Below, in pieces: positions 32,895 through 36,211 of a DNA stretch of 36,211 bases. Each line of letters begins with the position of its first letter. The stretch's first letter is position 1. The stretch lies in contig CASFOK010000016.1 of assembly GCA_949296475.1 (NCBI GenBank), positions 1 to 36,211 on the forward strand. Direction: 5' to 3'. The notes beneath the pieces are model-generated. The model was not told the DNA's origin. It worked only from the letters and a program-made list of their open reading frames with translations, and did not search any database. Both the position numbers and the translations under genes were made by a program. The stretch comes from an uncultured Pseudomonadota bacterium (GTDB taxonomy: Bacteria > Pseudomonadota > Alphaproteobacteria > Rs-D84).

Positions 32895-32924
32895 TTGATT
32901 TCATAGTTAATAAAAATTTATAAT
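32895..32924 (+). promoter_or_regulatory. Promoter of the structured RNA
   Basis: TTGATT at 32895-32900, 18 nt spacer, TATAAT at 32919-32924. Start expected near 32931, exactly at the first hairpin. Confidence 0.65.
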
Positions 32925-32930
32925 TTACCT

Positions 32931-33154
32931 GAACCCAATGGGAATTGAGTTCGGGGGCTGTAGCGGCCTTTATCTATTCGGTGCAAAAAGCATCGTTATC
33001 TGATGTTTCGGTGTAATTTTGCACCGTTATTATCCCTGACTGTAATGTCGGGGGGCCGTTGGTGTATACAATACGGTAAAACCGAAAGACCAATGGAATC
33101 ACTAATAGATTGATTCGCTAACTCCCCGACCGTCAATTCTCTGACGGTTTTTTT
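32931..33154 (+). ncRNA. Structured RNA of unknown class, about 220 nt
   Basis: This accounts for most of the 403-nt gene-free stretch 32771-33173. Visible helices: GAAC-c-CAAT/ATTG-a-GTTC (32931-32952, loop GGGA); TCGGGG/CCCCGA (32951-32956 with 33124-33129); AGCGGCC/GGCCGTT (32962-32968 with 33054-33060); a perfect 10-bp CGGTGCAAAA/TTTTGCACCG (32979-32988 with 33017-33026) with an inner CATC/GATG; CCCTGAC/GTCGGGG (33034-33053); CGGT/ACCG (33074-33084) inside TTGGT/ACCAA; GAATC/GATTC (33096-33116); and the terminal terminator. A promoter ends 6 nt before it. It does not show the signature sequences of 6S, tmRNA, RNase P or SRP RNA. It could be a free RNA or a leader controlling the gene at 33174. 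Confidence 0.65.
33129..33154 (+). terminator. Terminator at the end of the structured RNA
   Basis: ACCGTCA and TGACGGT (7 bp, 6-nt loop) followed by seven Ts, ending 19 nt before the start codon of the LamG-like gene. Confidence 0.85.
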
Positions 33155-33173
33155 GACACAAACGGGGACACAA

Positions 33174-34265
33174 ATGAAAAAAATTTTTTTTACTGTTATG
33201 TGTATCTTTTATACAAGATACGCGATATGCATTACATGCGATATACACGAATACATCAATAATGGAACGTGTACAACAATTTCGGTTGGATATTATGGAA
33301 CGAATTGCAACTTGCCAAAAGAATATGCAGAACTTGAATATCTAGAAAGCACGGGCAAACAGTACATAGACACAAAAATAATAATGCAACCAGAATACGA
33401 AATTCGCGCAACGGTTAATCCACTGTCAACACCTTCGGAGGGCTATTTTTATTGGGGTACCATGCCTTACAATATAAACCTAAATGACAAATCATTTACG
33501 TTTTGGCCGGTAATTTCTTCTGGCAAATCTCGCTGGAACAATAAATATATAACTTTTTTTCATCGCTATTTAACACACAATGCACTAAATGAAATAGTTC
33601 AAAATGAAACTGGGATAACCGTAAATGAAACGACGTATAAATATGCAGGTACATATGAAATAACGGAAGTTTATAACGACACATTATGGATTTTTAAAAC
33701 TAACGGACTTGACAGCCAATATAACGAGGGACCTTTTAGGATGCACCATTTCCAAATATTAGATGCTGATTCAGAAATTCTTATAAATCTTATTCCGGCA
33801 CTACGAATATCTGATTGTGCAATTGGAATGTACGACACCGTTTCTAACAAATTCTTTGAAAACCAAGGAACAAGCCCTTTTATAGCAGGCCCCCGTATCA
33901 GTTCTTGCACAACACAAACACAATGCACAAATGCCCCGACAAATTCTTATTATACCGAAAGCGGATTTAATAACGACTGCCCATGGAATTGTAAAGAAGA
34001 CTTTGGACAAACTGTTTATGATACATGTATGCCACTTTGTAAATCAACGGGACATAAAACTTTAAACGCTGGAACAAAAATATCGGTTCCTATGTTTGCA
34101 GAACGAAACACAACACCATCACTGATATTTAAATTCCACGATAACAATATTTGTTATGTTGATTTAACCCCAGGTAATACAACAGATGCAATACACGTTT
34201 TATTCAAAGGAACAGTTTACCATTCAATGAAGAAAGAACCGCATAAATCACTATGTGAAAATTGA
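33174..34265 (+). CDS. Secreted protein with LamG-like domain and Cys-rich tail
   Basis: 363 residues from the ATG at 33174 (CGGGGAC site 4 nt upstream). Signal peptide MKKIFFTVMCIFYTRYAIC, a short Cys segment, then a LamG/concanavalin-like domain recognised by LEYLESTGKQYIDT near residue 47 and by HHFQILDADSEILIN...IGMYDTVSNKFFENQGTSPF near residues 190-235. After it comes a Cys-rich part (SSCTTQTQC, CPWNC, CMPLC). Such domains are common in surface proteins of gut bacteria and phages and bind ligands, often carbohydrates. The gene has no promoter of its own; it lies directly after the structured RNA and its terminator, and its ribosome binding site can pair with the RNA's 3' arm. Confidence 0.65.
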   Translation: MKKIFFTVMCIFYTRYAICITCDIHEYINNGTCTTISVGYYGTNCNLPKEYAELEYLESTGKQYIDTKIIMQPEYEIRATVNPLSTPSEGYFYWGTMPYNINLNDKSFTFWPVISSGKSRWNNKYITFFHRYLTHNALNEIVQNETGITVNETTYKYAGTYEITEVYNDTLWIFKTNGLDSQYNEGPFRMHHFQILDADSEILINLIPALRISDCAIGMYDTVSNKFFENQGTSPFIAGPRISSCTTQTQCTNAPTNSYYTESGFNNDCPWNCKEDFGQTVYDTCMPLCKSTGHKTLNAGTKISVPMFAERNTTPSLIFKFHDNNICYVDLTPGNTTDAIHVLFKGTVYHSMKKEPHKSLCEN

Positions 34266-35778: not shown

Positions 35779-35893
35779 TTCTGGCGACGACCTACTCTTC
35801 CGTGGCTTAAGCCAAAGTACCATCGGCGATACGGGGTTTCCCTGTCTGGTTCGGGATGGAACAGAGGGTGACTCCCGCTCAATAATCACCAGA
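35779..35893 (-). rRNA. rrf: 5S ribosomal RNA
   Basis: The minus strand shows the conserved 5S core (GAACCAGACAGGGAAACC region, CGCCGATGGTACT, GGAAGAGTAGGTCG) between complementary ends TCTGG and CCAGA. The terminal stem is extended beyond the mature RNA: CTGGATTTATTCTGG at 35770-35784 pairs perfectly with 35889-35903, a processing stem. Ends are estimated to within a few bases. Confidence 0.93.
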
Positions 35894-35990
35894 ATAAATC
35901 CAGCGAACATTCGTAAATTCATTTCAAATCAACATGCTTTGAACTTACTCTTCAAGCATACGTCTGACTTAACAAAAAGTCAAACAAAAA

Positions 35991-36211
<221 letters not shown>

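Follow-up and report, generated by a model that had tools for sequence, protein, structure and literature searches.

The described systems closest to the element analysed here are the C4 antisense RNA of phages P1 and P7 (RF01695) and sRNA-Xcc1 of Xanthomonas (RF02221). As characterized in PMC5320573, C4 RNA is cut by RNase P out of a longer transcript and has two loops, a′ and b′, of which b′ covers part of the ribosome site; c4-a1b1 was listed as a separate motif by Weinberg et al. (PMC2864571). The multi-copy C4-derived sRNAs of Acinetobacter baumannii are described as processed RNAs that match the C4 motif (PMC5320573). sRNA-Xcc1, which belongs to no clan in Rfam, is a trans-acting sRNA according to the title of Chen 2011 (cited in PMC12444791), and its homologues are treated, in the literature consulted, as trans-acting virulence sRNAs.

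The window, by which we mean the whole stretch of 36,211 nt that was analysed (contig CASFOK010000016.1 of an uncultured alphaproteobacterium), contains at positions 32931–33154 of the + strand, to which all features below belong unless stated otherwise, a structured RNA which serves as 5′ leader to the gene at 33174 rather than being a stand-alone ncRNA gene, as an earlier note on this DNA had supposed. Both promoter boxes named in that note are present, a −35 TTGATT (32895) and a −10 TATAAT (32919–32924) with an 18-nt spacer, and make up a putative promoter at 32895–32924. Because promoter-like consensus sites are as frequent in the region as expected by chance (8 observed, 8.6 expected), the consensus by itself is no evidence, and conservation across copies counts instead: a −10 box matching at least five of six positions lies no more than 20 nt upstream in 63 of 85 copies, as against 36 of 252 control positions, and is mostly situated 4–5 nt 5′ of the element. 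Transcription is proposed to start at about 32930. The strong intrinsic terminator claimed in the note is likewise found, as the stem GACCGTCA..TGACGGTT with a U run (33128–33154; stem arms 33128–33134 and 33143–33149), which is 97% paired in 39 copies with compensatory changes at four of its seven pairs, and whose 5′ arm has GACC in common with P1′, the 3′ strand of helix P1. Downstream of it follow a Shine-Dalgarno-like (SD) GGGG (33164–33167) and the start codon. In 77 of 85 copies an SD and start codon follow the element at a distance of 8–60 nt (median 23 nt), compared with 72 of 510 random positions, and this short, constant distance identifies the element as a 5′ leader. A coding function of the stretch itself was considered and rejected, only short, mechanically called ORFs being present.

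The gene that follows in the window (33174–34265) encodes a 363-aa protein with an apparent signal peptide and no Pfam match. It is one of a large family of paralogues in the genus, with some 20 matches or more in each of the genomes G028, G108 and G135; two separable regions, about 45–245 and 243–355, can be distinguished in the family, and several copies are broken by stop codons. Across the 85 copies, the downstream products include outer-membrane barrels, Chlamydia-type PMP repeats, a YadA anchor, glycosyltransferases, DNA methylases, a superinfection-immunity domain, and many lipoproteins and secreted proteins, and hydrophobic N-termini are enriched among them by a crude test (70/85 versus 181/343, p 3e-7). 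In a subgroup of six loci (L133, L125, L134, L144, L117 and L173) the gap between element and start codon is unusually long, 101–113 nt, and the genes led are related and mostly large and of surface type. The window ends, on the − strand, with 5S rRNA and the 3′ end of 23S rRNA (35779–36211).

These observations bear on the possibility that the 220-nt RNA is itself the product, a type III-like antitoxin or a trans-acting sRNA that acts elsewhere, its neighbour being incidental. Possession of its own promoter and terminator would suit such an RNA, as would the title under which the Xanthomonas sRNA-Xcc1 was described as trans-acting (Chen 2011, in PMC12444791), but the short, uniform spacing between the element and an SD and start codon, the distribution of the downstream proteins over 58 clusters rather than one toxin type, and the match of the address loops to the element's own 5′ part make this explanation highly improbable.

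Relatives ahead of other genes, for which the earlier note had proposed a search, are numerous. Of 142 sampled genomes of the order that comprises Candidatus Enterousia and its relatives, 130 contain homologues of about 220 nt, which occur in two of the order's families (f1 and f4) and not in four others. A covariance model built from 39 copies (R1) detects the element at full length in 55 of the 59 genomes sampled within the genus. With the window DNA as query, most genomes of the genus likewise gave matches, frequently in large numbers. Copy number varies: the window's genome contains eight copies, two nearly complete genomes contain 22 and 42, and most genomes of the order between 1 and 42. 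A DNA pattern search of named genomes located the family in gut Alphaproteobacteria, including Candidatus Enterousia intestinigallinarum, with further copies in MAGs filed as Rickettsiales; the hosts are gut bacteria with tiny genomes. One pattern match, in Flavipsychrobacter (L148), was discarded since the covariance model did not match it. A full-length copy of 182 bits in Endomicrobiia bacterium MS502-22 (L155) reflects either horizontal transfer or contamination. The leader is also present on two IMG/VR viral contigs (L308 and L309); in L308 it precedes, by eye, a small protein and two lipoproteins near terminase-like and DNA methylase-like genes, and the same small protein stands behind the same kind of leader at L111.

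That the RNA contains multiple helices, as claimed from the single sequence, is borne out by folding and by its homologues. The minimum free energy of the region is −84.3 kcal/mol, compared with a mean of −57.6 for shuffled sequences (z −5.9), and none of 200 shuffles was as low. Covariation was counted after 39 copies had been aligned with MAFFT without reference to structure; in this alignment 95.7% of the cells of the named structure are paired and 224 cells carry double changes, as against 58.7 in shuffles (0/500 reaching the observed value) and 25–33 when the partners are slid. The homologues thus do not show the lack of compensation that the note had named as counter-evidence. The element begins with a 5′-terminal hairpin, P0 (GAACCCAAT-GGGA-ATTGAGTTC, 32931–32952), which is 96% paired with compensatory changes at five of eight pairs, followed by GGGGG (32953–32957) and by two hypervariable segments, A (32961–32966) and B (32973–32978), corresponding to a1 and b1 of C4. 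Next come the hairpin Pc (32979–33026), the arms of which, CGGTGCAAAA and TTTTGCACCG, form the perfect 10-bp stem already recognized in the note, and the strand CCCTGAC (33034–33040). The 3′ part is an Xcc1/C4-like core (33047–33131) composed of P1 (GTCGGGGGG, 33047–33055, with CTCCCCGACC, 33122–33131, the strands that contain the TCGGGG/CCCCGA long-range closure drawn earlier), P2 (33056–33063/33089–33096), P2b, the conserved internal loop GTATACAATA...GAAAG, and P3 (TCA...TGA). The loop of P3 holds B′ (AATAGA, 33104–33109), which is complementary to B, and A′ (TCGCTA, 33115–33120), complementary to A, lies between P3 and P1′.

The strongest covariation resides in the long-range helices A:A′ and B:B′, which are overlooked in a local view of the sequence: compensation at one pair of A:A′ is seen in up to 26 of 39 copies, and B:B′ shows compensatory changes at all six pairs. 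These two hypervariable helices are the most informative ones and, together with the leader role and the multiplicity of copies, go beyond what a single sequence could reveal. As B′ sits in the loop of P3, A:A′ and B:B′ become pseudoknots once P3 and P1 form and are nested when P1 is absent. Two alternatives share strands. In one, P1 pairs GTCGGGG (from 33047) with CCCCGAC (33124–33130); in the other (state I), the 5′ GGGGG pairs with the CCCC of 33122–33128 and CCCTGAC pairs with GTCGGGG, so that both helices compete with P1. Compensatory changes give some support to either state: in P1 they occur at pairs 171:251 and 172:250, and in the 5′ GGG:CCC helix that competes with it at pair 26:256, where AU replaces GC in two copies. 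The anti-P1 helix CCCTGAC:GTCGGGG is paired in 99.5% of cells and shows no compensatory changes.

No Rfam family reached its gathering threshold in the region, and the models of 6S, tmRNA, RNase P and SRP RNA, which the earlier note had also seen no sign of, gave no match there. An independent RNA of an entirely new class is not supported, since the element is a leader and its 3′ half is a remote relative of sRNA-Xcc1 with the layout of C4. The entire sRNA-Xcc1 model (1–87 of 87) aligns at 33047–33138 with 27.2 bits, under the gathering cut-off of 53 bits, and over this whole length the three-helix core and the conserved ATACAA/GAAAG internal loop are recovered. A single locus of the genus, L051 in genome G020, exceeds the cut-off with 57.8 bits, the remaining genus copies listed scoring about 31–50 bits, and at E ≤ 0.001 the model matches in 27 of 59 genomes compared with none of 14 control genomes. 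The 3′ domain thus shares with sRNA-Xcc1 the order P1-P2-(TACAA internal loop/GAAAG)-P3-P1′, a leader-like place before an SD and start codon, and address loops complementary to an upstream copy. The window copy differs from sRNA-Xcc1 in its score below the cut-off, in an extra 5′ domain of about 110 nt, in a separate downstream intrinsic terminator, and in that no target of the address loops is detectable at the ribosome site.

Genuine sRNA-Xcc1 loci are themselves informative in this respect. The model scores above its cut-off in 39 of 398 genomes of other Pseudomonadota, and in 23 of 26 loci examined an SD and start codon lie within 120 nt. The P3 loop and the junction following it are complementary to an upstream segment and to the sequences flanking the SD (0/2000 permutations each); for the core loops against the SD region the values are 7.16 versus 5.17, again with 0/2000 permutations. 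At L276, for example, CCGAAAA...CAAACAG upstream and CCGAAAA-GGAG-CAAACAG-CCATG downstream both face CTGTTTG..TTTTCGG in the core. Because the loops match both an upstream copy and the SD flanks, these loci have the C4 layout, a1b1 / b′a′ / a2-SD-b2, and true C4 loci (L310–L313) show a like arrangement by eye. The sRNA-Xcc1 loci L258–L287, distributed across Pseudomonadota, stand by eye ahead of antirepressor-like, SymE-like and other small genes.

With the C4 RNA of P1 and P7 the window family shares the three-stem core, the position of b′ in a loop and of a′ before the closing stem, complementarity of these loops to a1 and b1 upstream in the same transcript, and co-transcription with the gene apparently controlled. 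Many copies also have GG(T) at the start of P1; GG on the 5′ side of P1 is, in the account of C4 cited above (PMC5320573), the RNase P cut site. The family differs from C4 of these phages in that no a2/b2 is detectable at the ribosome site, in that it extends beyond antirepressor genes, and in that control is apparently exerted through termination. Membership in C4 proper was rejected, since the C4 covariance model is unmatched and an a2/b2 target at the ribosome site is not detectable: the model finds nothing in the region even at E 10, and at E 0.1 it matches none of seven genus genomes (the window's and six relatives), although it does match four of seven other genomes that bear sRNA-Xcc1, at other places. 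Like the C4-derived sRNAs of A. baumannii, the family is a phage-type antisense RNA that has multiplied across the genome and whose a′/b′ loops have diverged; those RNAs are described as processed and as matching the C4 motif (PMC5320573), whereas here the copies are terminator-bearing leaders of single genes without a C4-model match in the genomes tested. In the window family, a1b1 and b′a′ are retained and the terminator occupies the place of the ribosome-site target. Since in genome G020 window-type leaders coexist with the Xcc1-type locus L051, at which inspection shows a target at the ribosome site, we infer that the former may derive from Xcc1-type loci, as this co-occurrence suggests.

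The pairing addresses formed by A and B are mostly unique, copy by copy, as judged from sequence comparison. All eight copies in the window's genome pair with themselves at 11 of 11 positions, whereas cross-pairing between copies reaches at most 9 (mean 5.7). In the larger alignment A4 (110 matches), which, having been fitted to the model, is biased towards the structure, self-pairing averages 10.85 of 11 positions for the 104 copies whose segments are complete, as against 5.79 with other copies. Ninety distinct addresses occur among these 104 copies; in genome G089, one address is common to two copies. An alignment-free permutation test gave the same picture, the longest pairing of a copy with its own segments averaging 8.11 nt versus 5.59 (0/2000 permutations). 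Pairing of the core loops of window-type copies with the SD region did not exceed that expected (5.70 versus 5.62, 534/2000 permutations), so that no a2/b2 target is detectable. The complementarity permutations, the address comparison, the N-terminus test, the folding probabilities, the −10 placement and the SD and start counts all come from hand-made tests.

Taken together with the leader architecture, which is well supported by the comparison of copies, the element is probably a new terminator-coupled variant of the C4/sRNA-Xcc1-type self-antisense RNA, acting as a leader ahead of accessory genes that often encode surface proteins, and self-antisense control of the terminator is the most likely mode of action. 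Transcription from about 32930 would display the address segments A and B in the 5′ part, and the 3′ part would fold into the three-helix C4-like core, whose loops B′ and A′ are complementary to these segments. With A:A′ and B:B′ paired, the upstream GGGG and CCCTGAC strands would keep the strands of P1 apart, which would leave GACC free for the terminator to form, so that an RNA of about 220 nt is released and the gene is off. If A and B were kept from A′ and B′, by slow folding or because another antisense RNA from that locus has engaged them, P1 (GTCGGGG/CCCCGAC) could form and withdraw GAC from the terminator stem, and read-through would be favoured. The core may act on A and B, possibly also in trans, and processing of the transcript is conceivable. 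Because addresses differ from copy to copy, each leader would recognize its own RNA; intramolecular compensatory drift alone could also have caused the divergence of the addresses.

An intrinsic terminator before the SD and a structure that competes with it, as found here, are the hallmarks of an attenuator- or riboswitch-type leader, the competition computed being moderate. In equilibrium folding, the mean probabilities over 39 copies are 0.94 for A:A′, 0.89 for the anti-P1 helix, 0.87 for the terminator and 0.01 for P1; blocking A and B raises P1 to 0.28, with values above 0.5 in only 12 of the 39 copies, and lowers the terminator to 0.77. These values indicate that the terminated form is the default and that withholding A and B causes a modest shift towards P1. 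For the window copy the full terminator stem reaches just 0.15, because a strand of the 5′ hairpin competes for it, and blocking A and B leaves P1 at 0. The same competition between P1 and terminator might be expected of a ligand-binding riboswitch, in which the loop TATAMAAYA/GAAAG would be the receptor for a small molecule or protein, A:A′ and B:B′ would be ordinary structural helices, and a shared signal would act on the terminator to control surface and accessory genes as a regulon. The leader position with a terminator, the conserved core residues, and the many copies ahead of genes enriched in hydrophobic N-termini are in keeping with this explanation, which is nevertheless unlikely, because A and B are far more variable than the other helices and pair almost uniquely with themselves, which a riboswitch does not need, because the same loops match the ribosome-site target in the related Xcc1 loci, a signature of antisense RNA, and because the downstream genes have no common pathway.

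The leaders may move together with their genes. PPDK and Sua5, between which the window's RNA and secreted gene lie, adjoin each other in seven relatives with neither the RNA nor a secreted gene in between, so that the RNA and gene in the window represent an insertion of about 1.4 kb. At three loci (L170, L171 and L179), near-identical units of RNA and three genes lie downstream of unrelated DNA, and the shared unit, 99% identical, starts exactly at the 5′ end of the element, which is also the presumed transcription start. By eye, L170 has an ORF resembling an integrase upstream and ORFs resembling primase/helicase downstream; L179 is filed under Gastranaerophilales. The insertion and the sharp common start could mean that mobile gene cassettes have the RNA at their left boundary and that it serves chiefly as a site of recombination and not in regulation. 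However, neither a common right end nor an attC-like site was found for such cassettes, L179 is possibly a chimeric or misbinned contig, and sharp left ends can also arise through exchange among many similar leaders; as the signals typical of an RNA are strong (−10 spacing, U-rich terminator, G-U pairs and SD spacing), a primary role as a boundary is very doubtful.

A wider proposal is offered tentatively and as one: that a phage-type self-antisense RNA was turned into genome-wide, mutually orthogonal, locus-addressed attenuators, which spread with accessory surface and restriction-modification genes, and that sRNA-Xcc1 is itself a C4-type cis antisense leader. Should this be correct, the predicted role of sRNA-Xcc1 homologues would be to control the following gene, such as a SymE-like one, as self-antisense RNAs, a role that differs from the trans-acting virulence sRNA of the literature consulted. 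For the gut bacteria that carry the family, it would mean that an antisense RNA of the phage immunity type has been domesticated as a leader with up to about 40 uses per 1-Mb genome, and that, with nearly every copy possessing its own pairing address, these leaders would constitute a natural library of orthogonal attenuators.
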